The notes beneath the pieces were generated by a model, which did no database searches, was not told where the DNA came from, and was given only the letters and a program-made list of their open reading frames with translations. A stretch of 64,000 nucleotides of DNA from Flavobacterium sp. LC2016-13 (lineage in GTDB: Bacteria; Bacteroidota; Bacteroidia; Flavobacteriales; Flavobacteriaceae): contig NZ_WMDQ01000003.1 in the NCBI RefSeq assembly GCF_009707955.1, forward strand, positions 434,001 to 498,000, written 5' to 3'. A program made the position numbers and the translations under genes. Below, piece by piece: positions 42,991 through 52,540 of the stretch (the first letter of the stretch is position 1; each line of letters begins with the position of its first letter).

Positions 42991-43584
42991 ATGGCAAGTA
43001 AAGATCGTATTTTAAGACAAAAAGAAGAGACAAGAAGTAACATTCTTGAGGCTGCTTATGCTATCGTCAAAGAAGAAGGATGGCAAGGTCTGAGTATGAG
43101 AAAGATTGCTGACAAGATTGAATACACTGCTCCTATTATCTACGAATATTTTTCTAATAAGGATGCTATTTTAAATGAACTAACCGGTAAAGGGTTTATT
43201 AAATTATCTAAAGAGCTTCAGGAAGCCAGAGGAAGATTTGAAAAACCGGAAGATCAACTGGAAGCTATGTGGATGGCTTATTGGGATTTTGCTTTTACAG
43301 ATACTGAAATGTATCAGGTTATGTTTGGTGTGCAAATGAACTGTTGTTCGCAACAATGCTCTGCTGCAGAAGCGCCTTATAAATTATTTACTTCGGTGAT
43401 TGCTGAAATTATGAAAAAGAGCAATCCGAGTGCTGAAGTAATTAAACAAAAGTATTTTACTTTCTTTTCTGTTATTCATGGTTTGATCGCTATTAATATC
43501 ATCAACAGAAGTGAAATTATGGAAACCATAAACAATCAAATCTTAAAAGATGCGATTGGAGGAATCATAAAATCAATACAATAA
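42991..43584 (+). CDS. TetR-family repressor of the second RND operon
   Basis: 197 aa with an N-terminal TetR helix-turn-helix (TRSNILEAAYAIVKEEGWQ, MRKIADKIEYTAPIIYEYFS) and a ligand-binding C-terminal half containing several cysteines (QMNCCSQQCSA, about residues 114-124). The gene is immediately followed by an MFP-RND-OMF operon. Copies of the same 23-bp motif precede both, so autoregulation and repression of the pump are likely. The cysteine cluster could make it redox- or electrophile-responsive (inference). Confidence 0.88.
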   Translation: MASKDRILRQKEETRSNILEAAYAIVKEEGWQGLSMRKIADKIEYTAPIIYEYFSNKDAILNELTGKGFIKLSKELQEARGRFEKPEDQLEAMWMAYWDFAFTDTEMYQVMFGVQMNCCSQQCSAAEAPYKLFTSVIAEIMKKSNPSAEVIKQKYFTFFSVIHGLIAINIINRSEIMETINNQILKDAIGGIIKSIQ

Positions 43585-43808: not shown

Positions 43809-43891
43809 GAATTAAAATGAATACCACCAATACTATAAAAGAGAGAATGTTAAACAACGAGAATTTCCAACAAATTAAAACCAATAGAAAA

Positions 43892-45037
43892 ATGAAAAAT
43901 GTAATTATAACCAGCTTTATTCTGGCTCTGGTACTTGCTAGTTGTGCCGATAAATCGCAAGCTCCGGCTCCACCGCCACCTCCGGTTTTACCTGTTGCCG
44001 CTATCACAATTGAAAACACTACTACTGATAATGAATATCCTGCCTCTATACAAGGAACTGTTGACGTTGAAATTCGTCCGCAAGTAAGTGGAAACTTAGA
44101 TCGCGTTTTAGTAGACGAAGGTGCTTATGTATCTAAAGGACAATCTTTATTCAAAATAAACGAAAGACCTTACCGTGAGCAATTAAACAATGCATTGGCT
44201 AGTCTTCACGCTTATGAAGCAGCTTTAATCAACGCTCAGTTAGAAGTTGATAAATTAACTCCTTTAGTTCAAAACAAAGTAGTTTCTGATTATCAGTTAA
44301 AAACTGCTAAAGCTTCTCAAAAAATTGCTGCTGCAAATATTGAACAAGCTAAAGCAATGGTAGCATCTGCAAAAATTAACTTAGGATATACAAATGTGAC
44401 AGCTCCAGTAAGTGGTTACATTGGAAGATTACCTAAAAAACAAGGAAGTTTAGTTTCTGCATCTGATGTTGAGGCTTTAACAACACTTTCAGACGTTCAT
44501 GAAGTTTTTGCTTATTTCTCTTTAGGAGAAACAGATTTCATCAACTTTAAATCACAATACGCAGGAAACTCACTTGGAGATAAAATAAAACACTTACCTC
44601 CGGTTTCTTTAATATTAGCTGATAACAATGCTTATCCTCAAACAGGAAAAATCGACATGGTAGATGGTCAATTTGATAAAACTACCGGTGCCATTACTTT
44701 AAGAGCGACTTTCCCTAACAAAAACGGAACATTACGTTCTGGAAACACAGGAAGAATCAGATTAGGAATTCAGCACGACGATGCGATTTTGGTTCCACAA
44801 TCGGCTACAATAGAAATGCAGGATAAAATCTTCGTTTTTACTTTAAGCAAAGACAACAAGGTTAACAAAATGCCAATTACGGTTATTGGAAAAAGCGGAA
44901 CAAACTATCTTATTAAAGATGGTGTAAAATCTGGCGATCAAATCGTATTAAGCGGTGTTGATAAACTTCAGGAAGGACAAGTAATTCAACCTGAAAAATC
45001 AGCTACAAAAGTTGCCGAAATAACTAACAAAAAATAA
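43892..45037 (+). CDS. RND efflux periplasmic adaptor (AcrA-like lipoprotein)
   Basis: 381 aa from the ATG at 43892, which starts a lipoprotein signal (MKNVIITSFILALVLASC). An in-frame ATG at 43817 would add 25 residues before it. The mature protein begins with a proline-rich linker (QAPAPPPPPVLPVA), then has AcrA-type blocks: EIRPQVSGNLDRVLVDEGAY, alpha-hairpin about 95-160, VTAPVSGYIGRLPKKQGSLV and TTGAITLRATFPN. It bridges the AcrB-like pump and the outer-membrane factor encoded downstream. Confidence 0.92.
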   Translation: MKNVIITSFILALVLASCADKSQAPAPPPPPVLPVAAITIENTTTDNEYPASIQGTVDVEIRPQVSGNLDRVLVDEGAYVSKGQSLFKINERPYREQLNNALASLHAYEAALINAQLEVDKLTPLVQNKVVSDYQLKTAKASQKIAAANIEQAKAMVASAKINLGYTNVTAPVSGYIGRLPKKQGSLVSASDVEALTTLSDVHEVFAYFSLGETDFINFKSQYAGNSLGDKIKHLPPVSLILADNNAYPQTGKIDMVDGQFDKTTGAITLRATFPNKNGTLRSGNTGRIRLGIQHDDAILVPQSATIEMQDKIFVFTLSKDNKVNKMPITVIGKSGTNYLIKDGVKSGDQIVLSGVDKLQEGQVIQPEKSATKVAEITNKK

Positions 45038-45048
45038 TTTTTACGAAA

Positions 45049-48000
45049 ATGTTCAAAATATTTATACAAAGACCCGTTTTAGCAACCGTTATTTCCATTT
45101 TATTGGTGATATTAGGTATACTTGGTCTTACGAAATTACCTTTACAACAGTTTCCTGATATTGCGCCGCCATCGGTTTTGGTAACGGCAGTTTATCCGGG
45201 AGCGAACGCAGAAACGGTTTTACGTTCTGTTGCGCCTTCACTTGAAGAGTCTATAAATGGTGTTGAAAACATGACTTACATGAGTTCAACAGCGAGTAAT
45301 GATGGTACTTTAGCCATTACTGTTTTCTTTAAATTAGGAACTGATGCTGACCAGGCTGCAGTAAACGTGCAAAACAGAGTTGCACAAGCTACAAGCCAGT
45401 TGCCTGCAGAGGTTGTTCAGCAAGGTGTAACAACTGCGAAACAACAAAACAGTTTTATCATGGCGATTGGTATGTATACAGAAGATGAATCGAAATACGA
45501 TCAGACTTTTGTTGCCAATTATGCTCAAATTAATATTATTCCTGAGATTAAACGTATTCCGGGAGTTGGTGCCGCCAGTATTTTTGGTGGTGTAAAAGAT
45601 TACTCAATGAGAGTTTGGTTAAATCCAACTCAAATGTCTACTTACAATGTTACGCCAAACGAAGTTATGGCAGCTATTCAGGACAAAAGTTTAGAAGCTG
45701 CTCCGGGTAAATTTGGAGAAAGAAGTAAGGAAGTTTTTGAATATGTAATTAAATACAAAGGAAAGCTAACCAAACCAGAAGATTATCAAAATATTGCAAT
45801 TCGTTCTAATGCCGACGGTTCTGTCCTTCGCTTAAGAGACGTTGCAAGAGTTGAACTTGGTGCTTATTCTTATAACAGTTTAACACGTTTAAATGGTAAA
45901 AAAGGAATCGTAATTGGAGTTATTCAATTAGCGGGTTCTAACTCAAATGATATTCAGGTTGCGATAAATAAATTGATGGTTAAAGCATCAAAAGATTTTC
46001 CTCCTGGCATTAAACACAATATTTTCTATAGCACAAAAGTATCTTTAGATCAATCAATCGATCAGGTAAAACATACTTTATTAGAAGCTTTTATATTAGT
46101 ATTTATTGTGGTATTTATCTTCTTGCAAGATTTTAGATCAACATTAATTCCGGCCATTGCTGTACCTGTAGCAATTTTAGGAACGTTCTTCTTCATGCAA
46201 TTATTCGGATTTTCGATCAACCTTTTAACGCTTTTCGCTTTAATTCTGGCGATTGGTATTGTGGTAGATGATGCAATTGTGGTTGTCGAAGCCGTGCACG
46301 CTAAAATGGAGCATAAACATTTGTCTCCAAAAATAGCGACACATGAAGCAATGCACGAAATTACGGGTGCTATTATCTCGATTACGCTGGTAATGGCTGC
46401 TGTATTCCTGCCGGTCGGTTTTATGGAAGGCTCAACAGGAGTTTTCTATCGTCAGTTTGCTTTTACGATGGCAATTGCAATTGTAATTTCGGCCGTAAAC
46501 GCTTTAACTTTAAGCCCTGCCCTAGCCGCTTTATTCTTAAAGGATAATCACGGTGAACACGAAGGAGATGCTCCATACGTGAAAAAAGGATTTAAAGAGA
46601 AATTCTTTAACGGATTCAACAAAAGTTTTGACTCATTAACAAACCGTTATGTTGGCGGATTAAAATTCTTAATTCGTAACAAATGGGTAAGTTTAGGCGG
46701 ATTGGCTTTAATTACTTTCGCTACTGTTGTAATGGTTAAAACAACTCCATCAGGATTTATTCCAACAGAAGATCAAGGATTTATTGCAATTGCCGTAAAT
46801 ACGCCTTCAGGAACATCTTTAGACGGAACTCAAAAAGTAATGACTCAGGCAGAAAATACTTTAAGAGCTTTAAATTCATCACGATTTGTAACAGCGATTT
46901 CAGGTTTCAACTTGTTAACGAATTCTACAAGTCCATCATCAGCAGTTGTTTTCGTATTGCTTAAACCAAACGAAGAACGTGGCGATGTTAAAAATATCGA
47001 TGAAATCATGAATGAAGTTCGTGGCAAATTAGGCGCGATTTCAGGAGGAAGTTTCTTCGTATTTAGTTTCCCAACCGTTCCTGGTTTCAGTAACGTTGAG
47101 GCTTTAGATTTGGTTCTTCAGGATAAAACCGGTGGTAAACTGGATAAGTTTAGTGGAATCTCTCAAAACTTTATCGGAGAATTGATGAAACGTCCTGAAA
47201 TAGCAGTTGCTTTTACAAGTTTCAAGGCTGATTATCCTCAATTACAATTGGATATTAATGATGCAAAAGCAGATCAGTTAGGCGTAAAAGTCAAAGATAT
47301 TCTGCAAACCATGCAAGCTTATTTTGGTAGCGCGCAGGCATCAGATTTCAATAGATTTGGTAAATATTACAGAGTTGTTGTTCAGGCTGATATTGCAGAC
47401 AGAGCAGATCCATCAGCAATTGATCGTGTATTTGTAAAAAACAAAAATGGCGAAATGGTTCCGTTAAATACTTTGGTAAAACTAAGCCGTATTTATGGTT
47501 CTGAAACAGCATCAAGATATAATTTATTTAACTCAATTGGTATAAATGCAATTCCGAAACCTGGATTTAGTTCCGGAGATGCCATCAAAGCAATTGAAGA
47601 AGTAGCAGCACAACAATTACCTGCGGGCTACGGATTTGAATTCTCAGGACAAACCCGTGAAGAAATTTCTTCAGGAGGTCAATCGGCAACAATTTTCTTA
47701 CTGTGTTTGATATTCGTCTATTTCTTACTTGCCGCACAGTATGAGAGTTACATCCTGCCTTTAGCAGTAATTCTATCAATCCCTGCAGGTATATTTGGAG
47801 TTTTCGTAGCCATTGGTTTAACTGGAATTGAAAATAACATTTATGTTCAGGTTGCACTGGTAATGCTTATTGGACTGCTCGCTAAAAATGCCATTTTGAT
47901 TGTCGAATTTGCCGTTCAAAAACGAAAATCCGGTCAGGCATTAGTAAAAGCATCCATAGATGCAGCAAAATTACGTTTACGACCAATTATCATGACATCT

Positions 48001-48213
48001 CTTGCCTTTGTTGTGGGATTAATCCCGATGATGAGCGCAACAGGACCGTCAGCACAAGGTAACCACTCTATTAGTATTGGTGCCGCCGGAGGTATGATAT
48101 CAGGAGTAATTCTTGGGTTGTTAATCATCCCGGTTTTATTCATCGTCTTCCAACATTTACAAGAAAAGGTTTCTGGAAAACCAGTAGCCGTAATTCATAA
48201 CGAAGAAAAATAA
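45049..48213 (+). CDS. AcrB-type RND multidrug efflux pump
   Basis: 1054-aa hydrophobe/amphiphile-efflux RND permease of the usual AcrB length. The canonical proton-relay residues are present: D-D in TM4 (GIVVDDAIVVVEAV) and K in TM10 (GLLAKNAILIVEFA). It starts MFKIFIQRPVLATVISILLV, the family's hallmark N-terminus, and contains TTPSGFIPTEDQGF at the start of the second periplasmic loop. Eleven bases after the adaptor and two bases before a 37-codon gene. Exports drugs, dyes or other amphiphiles; substrates cannot be predicted. Confidence 0.95.
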   Translation: MFKIFIQRPVLATVISILLVILGILGLTKLPLQQFPDIAPPSVLVTAVYPGANAETVLRSVAPSLEESINGVENMTYMSSTASNDGTLAITVFFKLGTDADQAAVNVQNRVAQATSQLPAEVVQQGVTTAKQQNSFIMAIGMYTEDESKYDQTFVANYAQINIIPEIKRIPGVGAASIFGGVKDYSMRVWLNPTQMSTYNVTPNEVMAAIQDKSLEAAPGKFGERSKEVFEYVIKYKGKLTKPEDYQNIAIRSNADGSVLRLRDVARVELGAYSYNSLTRLNGKKGIVIGVIQLAGSNSNDIQVAINKLMVKASKDFPPGIKHNIFYSTKVSLDQSIDQVKHTLLEAFILVFIVVFIFLQDFRSTLIPAIAVPVAILGTFFFMQLFGFSINLLTLFALILAIGIVVDDAIVVVEAVHAKMEHKHLSPKIATHEAMHEITGAIISITLVMAAVFLPVGFMEGSTGVFYRQFAFTMAIAIVISAVNALTLSPALAALFLKDNHGEHEGDAPYVKKGFKEKFFNGFNKSFDSLTNRYVGGLKFLIRNKWVSLGGLALITFATVVMVKTTPSGFIPTEDQGFIAIAVNTPSGTSLDGTQKVMTQAENTLRALNSSRFVTAISGFNLLTNSTSPSSAVVFVLLKPNEERGDVKNIDEIMNEVRGKLGAISGGSFFVFSFPTVPGFSNVEALDLVLQDKTGGKLDKFSGISQNFIGELMKRPEIAVAFTSFKADYPQLQLDINDAKADQLGVKVKDILQTMQAYFGSAQASDFNRFGKYYRVVVQADIADRADPSAIDRVFVKNKNGEMVPLNTLVKLSRIYGSETASRYNLFNSIGINAIPKPGFSSGDAIKAIEEVAAQQLPAGYGFEFSGQTREEISSGGQSATIFLLCLIFVYFLLAAQYESYILPLAVILSIPAGIFGVFVAIGLTGIENNIYVQVALVMLIGLLAKNAILIVEFAVQKRKSGQALVKASIDAAKLRLRPIIMTSLAFVVGLIPMMSATGPSAQGNHSISIGAAGGMISGVILGLLIIPVLFIVFQHLQEKVSGKPVAVIHNEEK

Positions 48214-48215
48214 AA

Positions 48216-48329
48216 ATGGAAAATTATATAACGACAATACTGGTGACCATTATAACGGGCATCGTTTACATATCCTACAAGATTTCTAAAGATCTGGACA
48301 GCAGAAAAGATACTTGTACTGAAATTTAA
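48216..48329 (+). CDS. 37-aa single-helix membrane protein between pump and channel genes
   Basis: Short gene starting 2 bases after the RND pump stop. It reads MENYITTILVTIITGIVYIS followed by a charged tail (YKISKDLDSRKDTCTEI). One transmembrane helix and a soluble tail give it the size and shape of small efflux-pump partners such as AcrZ of E. coli, but no sequence likeness is claimed. Its stop overlaps an ATG at 48329 (TAATG) in front of the outer-membrane factor gene, so translation is probably coupled through it. The tight packing makes it a credible gene despite its size. Confidence 0.65.
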   Translation: MENYITTILVTIITGIVYISYKISKDLDSRKDTCTEI

Positions 48330-48343
48330 TGACAACATATAAA

Positions 48344-49762
48344 ATGAAAAAGTATATAACCAAAATTGTGATGATCGCTATTTTGATCGCCACAGTAATA
48401 TCCTGTAAGGTTTCGAAGGATATTGAAACTCCAAAAGATGCATTTCCTGAAAATTTCAGGAATGCATCAACTTCAACCGATACAACAAGTATTGCTGATT
48501 TGGAGTGGAAAAATTTCTTTACAGAAAAAGATATTATTCAATTGATTGATAGCGCGGTGGCCAGAAATAACGATTTACAAATCGCTACAAAAAACATCGA
48601 AATTGCACAATACAGATTCACACAATCTAAATGGGGAAATGTTCCTCAGGCCAATTTATTTGTAAATGCAAGTACAAGCAATCCGTCTGACAATAGTTTT
48701 ACAGGAATGAACCTGAACCAGGCTTTAGGTCAAAAACATATTGACGATTATTCTGCAGGAGTTTCACTTTCTTGGGAAGCTGATATTTGGGGAAAAATCC
48801 GCAGTCAGAAAAAAGGTGCTTATGCAAGTTACCTTCAATCTGAAGAAGTAAAAAAAGCGTTGCAGACTAATATTGTTGCGAATGTTTCTAAAGGATATTA
48901 TAATCTTTTGATGTTAGACGCGCAATTGGATATCGCTAAGAAAAATGTACAACTAAACGATAGTACAACCAATATAATCAAACTAAAATTTGATGCCGGA
49001 CAAGTTACTTCGTTAGGAATTCAACAATCTGAAGCACAAAAATTAACTGCTGCACAATTGATTCCTTTATTAGAGCAAAATATTGCTATTCAGGAAAATG
49101 CTTTGAGTGTTTTGACAGGATCATTTCCAAATTCAAAACAAAGAAGTATTAAATTAAGTTCAATTGAAGTAAAAAACAATACAGCAATCGGAATTCCGTC
49201 TTCATTAGTAAGCAGAAGACCTGATGTAAAAAGTGCTGAATTGGCTTTAAAAGTTGCCAATGCAAACGTGGGAATCACAAAAGCAGATTTGTATCCTTCG
49301 CTTAAAATTACCGCTCAAGGCGGAGTAAATTCGTTCGAAACCAGCAATTGGTTCAATATTCCGGCTTCATTATTCGGAACTGTTGCAGGAGGTTTAACAC
49401 AACCTTTATTGAACAATAAAAGAGTTCGAACTCAATATAATATTGCTGTAGCCGAAAGAGAAAAAGCAGTTTTAAATTTCAGACAATCGGTTTTAGTAGC
49501 CGTTAGTGAAGTTTCAGACGCTTTAGTAAAAGTAGAGAAATTACAGCAGCAGGAATCTTTCCTTAAAGAAAGAGTAAAAACCTTGCAGCAAGCCATTAAA
49601 AATTCGAATTTGTTATTCAAAAACGGAATGGCAGAATACCTTGAAGTTTTATCTGCGCAATCTAATTTATTGCAAAGCGAGCTGGAACTGGCAAACATAA
49701 AAAGAGAGCAACTTTCTGCTAATACCGAATTATATCGTGCATTAGGCGGCGGTTGGAGATAA
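48344..49762 (+). CDS. NodT-family outer-membrane efflux lipoprotein
   Basis: 472 aa from the ATG at 48344, which starts a lipoprotein signal (KKYITKIVMIAILIATVISC). The in-frame ATG at 48329, overlapping the small gene's stop, would add 5 residues and is also plausible. Two OEP repeats are visible: LEWKNFFTEKDIIQLIDSAV opening, SAGVSLSWEADIWGKIRSQK, and SRRPDVKSAELALKVANANV, all typical of NodT/OprM proteins. It is the outer-membrane duct of the second RND system and the last gene of its operon. Confidence 0.93.
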   Translation: MKKYITKIVMIAILIATVISCKVSKDIETPKDAFPENFRNASTSTDTTSIADLEWKNFFTEKDIIQLIDSAVARNNDLQIATKNIEIAQYRFTQSKWGNVPQANLFVNASTSNPSDNSFTGMNLNQALGQKHIDDYSAGVSLSWEADIWGKIRSQKKGAYASYLQSEEVKKALQTNIVANVSKGYYNLLMLDAQLDIAKKNVQLNDSTTNIIKLKFDAGQVTSLGIQQSEAQKLTAAQLIPLLEQNIAIQENALSVLTGSFPNSKQRSIKLSSIEVKNNTAIGIPSSLVSRRPDVKSAELALKVANANVGITKADLYPSLKITAQGGVNSFETSNWFNIPASLFGTVAGGLTQPLLNNKRVRTQYNIAVAEREKAVLNFRQSVLVAVSEVSDALVKVEKLQQQESFLKERVKTLQQAIKNSNLLFKNGMAEYLEVLSAQSNLLQSELELANIKREQLSANTELYRALGGGWR

Positions 49763-52402: not shown

Positions 52403-52540
52403 TTTTAAATGCTTTAGTTTTTTAAACACATAGAAACATAGATTTTTGAGGTGAAAAAGGCGTTTCACTTGTCTAAACAAACATAGTAAAGAACAGGTGA
52501 AACCTGAAATCTGAAACAAAAAAAACCTGAAACAAAAAAA

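Follow-up and report, generated by a model that had tools for sequence, protein, structure and literature searches.

A predicted single-helix small protein traced to an outer-membrane factor signal peptide within an RND efflux operon of Flavobacterium

The window analysed here, a stretch of 64,000 nucleotides from Flavobacterium sp. LC2016-13 (contig NZ_WMDQ01000003.1, positions 434,001 to 498,000), carries a tripartite resistance-nodulation-division (RND) efflux operon in which a small open reading frame (sORF) lies between the gene of an AcrB/AcrD/AcrF pump and that of an OEP/NodT-type outer-membrane factor (OMF). The sORF is a real gene under strong purifying selection. It runs on the forward strand from an ATG at 48216 to a TAA at 48329 (48216..48329), two bases after the pump stop at 48211–48213, and encodes a 37-residue product, MENYITTILVTIITGIVYISYKISKDLDSRKDTCTEI. 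Both the coordinates and the neighbouring families agree with an initial annotation of this DNA, which had described a 37-residue frame two bases past the stop of an AcrB-type pump and before its channel. What that annotation did not contain is the kinship of the small protein with the adjacent OMF, to whose N-terminus it is paralogous. Comparison of the sequences firmly derives the small protein from the downstream OMF gene, whose 5′ end was duplicated in the ancestor of one Flavobacterium clade. With a probability of roughly 0.52, we favour a reading in which the small protein is a clade-specific, single-helix, inner-membrane accessory of the RND pump that was born by signal-peptide duplication.

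Purifying selection on the small open reading frame

Codon analysis was carried out on 67 distinct loci at which the sORF has exactly 37 codons, with the tree topology taken from pump and OMF DNA and kept fixed. The ratio of nonsynonymous to synonymous substitution (omega) was estimated at 0.144 with a log likelihood (lnL) of -2489.5, whereas omega fixed at 1 gave an lnL of -2680.6 at a transition/transversion ratio (kappa) of 1.934 and of -2680.2 at whichever of eight kappa values fitted best, so that the estimated value is better by about 191 lnL units. The corresponding omega was 0.030 for the C-terminal part of the pump and 0.258 for the N-terminus of the OMF. Pairwise comparison by the method of Nei and Gojobori (NG86) returned a median dN/dS of 0.11 (1610 of 1653 pairs usable), and an earlier run of 58 sequences on the sORF's own tree had returned an omega of 0.135. 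Among 66 distinct 37-codon relatives, a set chosen as open in the sORF frame, no more than 8 keep any one of the five other reading frames open (0 to 8 per frame). The dN/dS, the omega estimate and the closed alternative frames together rule out a chance ORF or non-coding DNA. The window also carries an antisense ORF opposite the sORF, at 48195–48338. An overlap with a conserved antisense ORF was considered and rejected, as any one minus frame is open in no more than 7 of the 66 distinct relatives (range 0 to 7).

Conservation extends well beyond the strain. We sampled 199 Flavobacterium genomes and measured pump identity over the C-terminal 299 residues; 47 of them encode a pump that is at least 91% identical to that of the window, and the sORF is present in 45 of these 47. 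Conversely, every one of the 45 sORF-bearing genomes has a pump at or above this identity, and genomes of the Flavobacterium sample without such a pump gave no sORF match better than E 0.03. The 111 loci fetched first included 68 with the sORF, among them the window's own place (L001 and L002), and once further genomes had been added and duplicates dropped 72 distinct sORF-bearing loci were at hand. The product is 37 residues long at 68 of these, 36 at two and 38 at two. The initial annotation had proposed conservation at the same operon position and a coding pattern under purifying selection as checks on its claim of a real, probably translated small protein, and at the level of sequence both findings back that claim. 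Its use of the overlap between the sORF and the next start fares differently. The overlap exists, as the first in-frame ATG of the OMF frame, at 48329, shares a TAATG with the sORF stop. However, it is present in only 27 of the 72 distinct loci and the conserved start of the OMF is not this ATG but an MK[K/N] motif at 48344, which opens a lipoprotein signal peptide and has in-frame stops just 5′ of it in several relatives. The overlap is therefore incidental and is given no weight.

Origin and distribution of the small protein

The segment MENYITTILVTIITGIVYISYKISKDLDSRKDTCTE of the small protein aligns without gaps with residues 6–41 of the OMF, MKKYITKIVMIAILIATVISCKVSKDIETPKDAFPE, at a score of 67 compared with a maximum of 47 in 2000 shuffles. 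The homologous region of the OMF, its first ~36 residues, comprises the signal peptide, the lipobox and the start of the mature chain. On 42 OMF N-termini from the clade, a profile built from 20 small proteins averaged 34.1 bits, whereas 150 block-shuffled profiles, whose columns were permuted within the helix and within the tail, reached means of at most 12.3. On 16 OMF N-termini from loci lacking the sORF the same profile gave a mean of 8.1 against a shuffled maximum of 5.2, with a single best score of 17.3 against 11.2, and hhalign matched the OMF N-termini of sORF-less loci with a probability of 95 and an E-value of 3.9e-8 over 34 columns. In all 14 sORF-bearing genomes of the family and order searches, the neighbouring OMF supplied the best other match through its N-terminus (E 1e-4 to 1e-9), among the 19 to 25 candidates that a loose and non-exhaustive first pass put forward for scoring in each genome. 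The block-shuffled profiles and these next-gene matches rule out the generic likeness of any two signal peptides as an explanation. The most divergent members, L139 and L140, for example MENYITSVLITVFVVFTLISWKVSKALEAPEDKCQKN, look nearer to the OMF (ISWKVSK.LEAP compared with ISCKVSKDIETP); with a tryptophan at the lipobox position and a proline-containing tail, they are apparent intermediates.

The daughter has been redesigned relative to its parent. Both N-terminal lysines of the OMF (K2 and K7) and its lipobox cysteine (C21) have been lost, such that none of 50 distinct small proteins has a lysine or arginine within residues 1–7, whereas 42 distinct OMF N-termini have a minimum of two. Residue 21 is tyrosine in 48 of the 50 and tryptophan in the other two, while M1, I5, T6, L27 and Cys34 are invariant in the same set. 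The mean frequency of the major residue is 0.99 over residues 1–6, 0.79 over residues 7–21 and 0.80 over residues 22–37. Given the loss of the lipobox cysteine and of the N-terminal lysines, the small protein is not expected to act as a signal peptide or to be a lipoprotein. The single helix proposed in the initial annotation is also what AlphaFold2 predicts from 19 sequences, with one helix spanning residues 2–33 at a mean predicted local distance difference test (pLDDT) score of 84.8 that drops to 59 in the last block. The net charge of residues 22–26 is +1 in 47 of the 50 proteins, 0 in one and +2 in two; as a count for the positive-inside rule only, this suggests by a small margin a predicted orientation with the N-terminus out and the C-terminus in.

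The distribution of the small protein is narrow. Profile searches of 397 genomes of the family and 296 of the order, in overlapping samples, returned no convincing member outside Flavobacterium, the best match there (E 4.2e-4) lying within a 321-residue frame. We also considered 56 loci without the family, drawn from other Flavobacterium, Mucilaginibacter, Pedobacter, Dyadobacter, Chitinophaga and others, with at least one genome present twice. None of the 56 gaps holds an ORF of at least 20 residues with a Kyte-Doolittle mean of at least 1.6 over 17 residues, the near misses being L095 (38 residues, 1.58) and L098 (27 residues, 1.41). The small protein was found only in one Flavobacterium clade among the sampled genomes, to which it thus appears confined. 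The initial annotation had raised the prospect of an overlooked RND subunit of Bacteroidota; a subunit it may be, but the profile searches and the gaps without a clearly hydrophobic ORF reject the Bacteroidota-wide scope.

Within the clade there is one clear loss. In a tree of the C-terminal 250 residues of the pump (FastTree with SH-like supports; a single outgroup tip as root), the 72 sORF-bearing tips share a common ancestor with 74 descendants, and the two without the sORF, L069 (Flavobacterium soli) and L112, are sisters within the clade (support 0.84; inclusion 0.75; whole clade 0.92). Their pumps are 92–94% identical over these 250 residues. Their OMFs are divergent at 66–68% identity and group with that of L068 (support 0.70), outside the main OMF type of the clade. 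In L112 a remnant persists in which both ends of the sORF are kept around a deletion and the second codon is a stop (alignment score 47.9 compared with a maximum of 39.5 in 1000 shuffles), and in L069 the OMF directly follows the pump stop. The OMF tree places 70 of the 72 sORF-bearing tips in one clade (0.99), with L066 joining at a support of 0.15 and L028 located elsewhere. At L028 the pump is 95% identical and the sORF intact, and the OMF is only 63% identical to that of the window and nearest (79%) to that of L119, a locus without the small protein. By these sequence comparisons OMF exchange and sORF loss coincide once, and another exchange, at L028, left the small protein in place beside the pump. 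A reading of the loss in L069/L112 as a strict bond between the small protein and one OMF type was dropped on account of L028. The first ~20 residues of the L028 OMF are still clade-like. More generally, a different OMF type stands behind a near-unchanged pump at L028, L112 and L069/L113, an apparent exchange of the channel within an RND operon that has occurred at least twice.

A candidate accessory of the RND pump

The spacing of the sORF is fixed on one side and variable on the other. Its ATG lies -1 to +4 nt from the pump stop at 66 of the 72 distinct loci and at -65 in the remaining six. At these six (L060, L062, L129, L132, L134 and L137) the pump frame runs past its usual stop and overlaps the sORF by 65 nt. 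Towards the OMF, 51 of 71 distinct loci have a gap of 16 nt or less and 20 have one that exceeds 100 nt, and at these 20 the sORF is still conserved. Such a fixed distance to the pump combined with a variable distance to the OMF ties production of the small protein to that of the pump. We propose a model where the sORF is translated together with the pump, given that only a few bases part its start from the pump stop, and where the product is neither exported nor lipidated. Its three-residue N-terminal tail would sit in the periplasm and its charged KISKDLETRKDTCTEI-like tail in the cytoplasm, with the helix packing on the transmembrane domain of the RND pump encoded next to it, as AcrZ does on AcrB. 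Bound in this way, it may modulate pump assembly, stability or substrate preference. Judged by its sequence, the duplicate changed function, with Y/W21 and C34 present throughout and purifying selection acting on it since. This reading gains from L028, where the OMF was exchanged and the small protein kept with the pump. A fuller version, in which in-place duplication of an OMF signal peptide supplied a fourth part of the tripartite pump, with lysines and lipidation cysteine lost, the orientation flipped and an AcrZ-like modulator as the outcome, is more tentative, and we judge it somewhat short of even odds. Several observations weigh against a pump accessory. The charge bias behind the predicted orientation is modest, and residues 21–32 are net negative in 6 of the 50 proteins. 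L069 and L112 kept the pump after losing the sORF, so the pump can do without the small protein. The small protein also bears no recognisable likeness to the Pfam families of AcrZ, KdpF or CydX. Finally, sORF divergence follows that of the OMF more than that of the pump (partial Spearman 0.57 compared with 0.29 over 67 loci, a comparison confounded by shared phylogeny).

The last of these points, together with homology to the OMF N-terminus, speaks for a peptide that serves the OMF instead. It would act as an uncleaved anchor that keeps the parental N-in/C-out orientation, and its Cys34-bearing tail, mimicking the linker that follows the lipidated cysteine in the OMF, would act in the periplasm on assembly of the OMF or the adaptor. 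Loss of the sORF in L069 and L112, a lineage with another OMF type, is consistent with such a role, as is a tail conserved like the helix (0.80 for residues 22–37 compared with 0.79 for residues 7–21) in which L27 and C34 are invariant. However, the mirror-tree difference may stem from co-transfer of neighbours, none of the 50 proteins retains a positive charge of the parental N-terminus, which disfavours an N-in orientation, and more than 100 nt is inserted before the OMF at 20 of 71 distinct loci while the pump distance is fixed. L028, whose OMF is also of another type, weakens the case further, and we consider a role at the OMF doubtful. Only a little less doubtful is a membrane small protein that the operon encodes for co-expression and that acts on another target in the membrane, or more generally in stress or quality control. 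Operon position is by itself no proof of a physical partner, but the sORF was found only beside this pump type in the genomes searched (all 45 having a pump of at least 91% identity), and even the second copy in genome G096 belongs to a near-identical duplication of that region.

Two further alternatives were weighed. As a leader or coupling ORF, the sORF might, by being translated, couple initiation of the OMF to termination of the pump, or regulate OMF translation through its nascent peptide, for which the short gap to the OMF at 51 of 71 distinct loci and the TAATG at 27 of 72 can be cited. Selection nevertheless acts on the peptide at the amino-acid level, and conservation holds where more than 100 nt, with a repeat element in 19 of 20 such gaps, parts the sORF from the OMF; this explanation is improbable. 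That the sORF is a fragment of a neighbouring gene might finally mark it as a non-functional scar of OMF replacement or duplication, open by chance. This is barely credible given an omega of 0.144 rather than 1, a length of 37 codons at 68 of 72 loci and of 36 or 38 at the other four, and the fixation of the new residues Y/W21 and C34. For the clade the scar is already refuted, and it holds only for the L112 remnant.

Known systems and the surrounding locus

No known small-protein family gave a credible score in Pfam, NCBIfam or the Protein Data Bank (PDB). A Pfam-A scan of 19 clade members at E up to 10, with filters that remove most matches above 0.1, returned no match to AcrZ, KdpF or CydX, although Pfam presumably contains an AcrZ model; the best match was to FeoB_associated at E 0.0097, in 3 of the 19 members. 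NCBIfam returned three matches to small proteins, all below cut-off, and a profile search of the PDB had no match at E up to 10. The closest relative is the NodT-type lipoprotein N-terminus itself (TIGR01845), which is homologous over residues 1–36 with the same helix and KVSKDIETPKD-like tail. The small protein differs from it in lacking the lipobox cysteine and N-terminal lysines, in ending at 37 residues, in having a conserved Cys34 and, as judged by its sequence, in no longer being a signal peptide.

To our knowledge there are only a few small single-helix pump partners, and such short sequences make it difficult to follow where they came from. The gene for AcrZ lies away from acrB, whereas the present sORF is located inside the pump operon. 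CydX is operon-encoded and single-helix, and KdpF, the small subunit of the Kdp ATPase, is an operon-encoded single-helix accessory of a transporter. Both are unrelated in sequence to the small protein, CydX having another partner and KdpF belonging to a transporter of another class. The operon-encoded single-helix accessory is thus a kind already known, to which the present locus would add a clade-specific case with an unusually clear origin. AcrZ provides the nearest parallel in form, as a single-helix membrane protein of fewer than 50 residues (37 here, with a predicted helix at 2–33) that is associated with an AcrB-type pump, in the present case by operon and co-occurrence. AcrZ is reported to have a periplasmic N-terminus and a cytoplasmic C-terminus (PMC7267776), an orientation that the charge count suggests by a small margin for the small protein. 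The two have no detectable sequence relation, the small protein derives from an OMF signal peptide, and its binding to the pump is something we infer. CydX, a 37-residue subunit of cytochrome bd oxidase, is equal in size and likewise a small protein of a membrane complex (PMC4325964). YbjP, a lipoprotein partner of TolC, offers a further parallel, in that a tripartite pump has an additional small partner which mimics an N-terminal segment of the OMF, a partner role that would apply here by analogy; YbjP is however lipidated, outer-membrane located and equipped with a globular domain, whereas the small protein has lost the lipidation cysteine (PMC13082787). A word search of titles and the starts of abstracts for small membrane proteins of RND or efflux operons in Bacteroidota and Flavobacterium returned nothing on this protein among the papers listed, and 'AcrZ' was not found in the part searched of a review of tripartite pumps (PMC8277102). 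If the small protein does modulate the pump, small RND accessories could arise lineage by lineage, and homology searches for AcrZ would miss them. The fuller model, if true, would describe a route by which export signals turn into membrane-protein subunits. With parent and daughter adjacent, apparent intermediates surviving and one clear loss, the descent of a membrane micro-protein from a signal peptide can be put to a direct test.

The remaining genes of the cluster lie upstream and downstream on the same forward strand. A TetR-family regulator (42991..43584; Pfam TetR_N, 4.3e-12) is the first gene, followed by a periplasmic adaptor of the HlyD/CusB type (43817..45037; HlyD_D23, 6.6e-13). 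The true start of the adaptor is probably 43892, where the sequence would open with a lipoprotein signal, MKNVIITSFILALVLASC. The AcrB-type RND pump of 1054 residues (45049..48213) matches Pfam ACR_tran at E=0 and NCBIfam TIGR00915 above cut-off, and the NodT/OEP lipoprotein that forms the OMF (48344..49762, its start set from conservation) matches TIGR01845 at 1e-78 and Pfam OEP at 6e-49.

Two minor features of the loci were also noted. An inverted repeat with ends ACACATAGAAACATAG and CTATGTTTCTATGTGT, often ~115 bp apart, resembles a repetitive extragenic palindromic doublet forming a hairpin (REPIN) or a miniature inverted-repeat transposable element (MITE). The window has a copy at 52426, and the same repeat is found between the sORF and the OMF in L044, L055, L042, L027, L129 and others; a half site is present in 19 of the 20 long sORF–OMF gaps (>100 nt), L050 having none by that test. 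Half sites with at most one mismatch number 63 in the genome of the window and 71, 74 and 43 in three relatives, with 0 and 1 in the two genomes without the small protein and 0 for a backwards-pattern control. Genome G096 carries a second copy of the region (L125), 99.8% identical over 3.1 kb spanning the pump end, the sORF and the OMF start, in which the pump frame is shortened to 262 residues and the OMF frame to 104, reflecting either a recent partial duplication or an assembly artefact.
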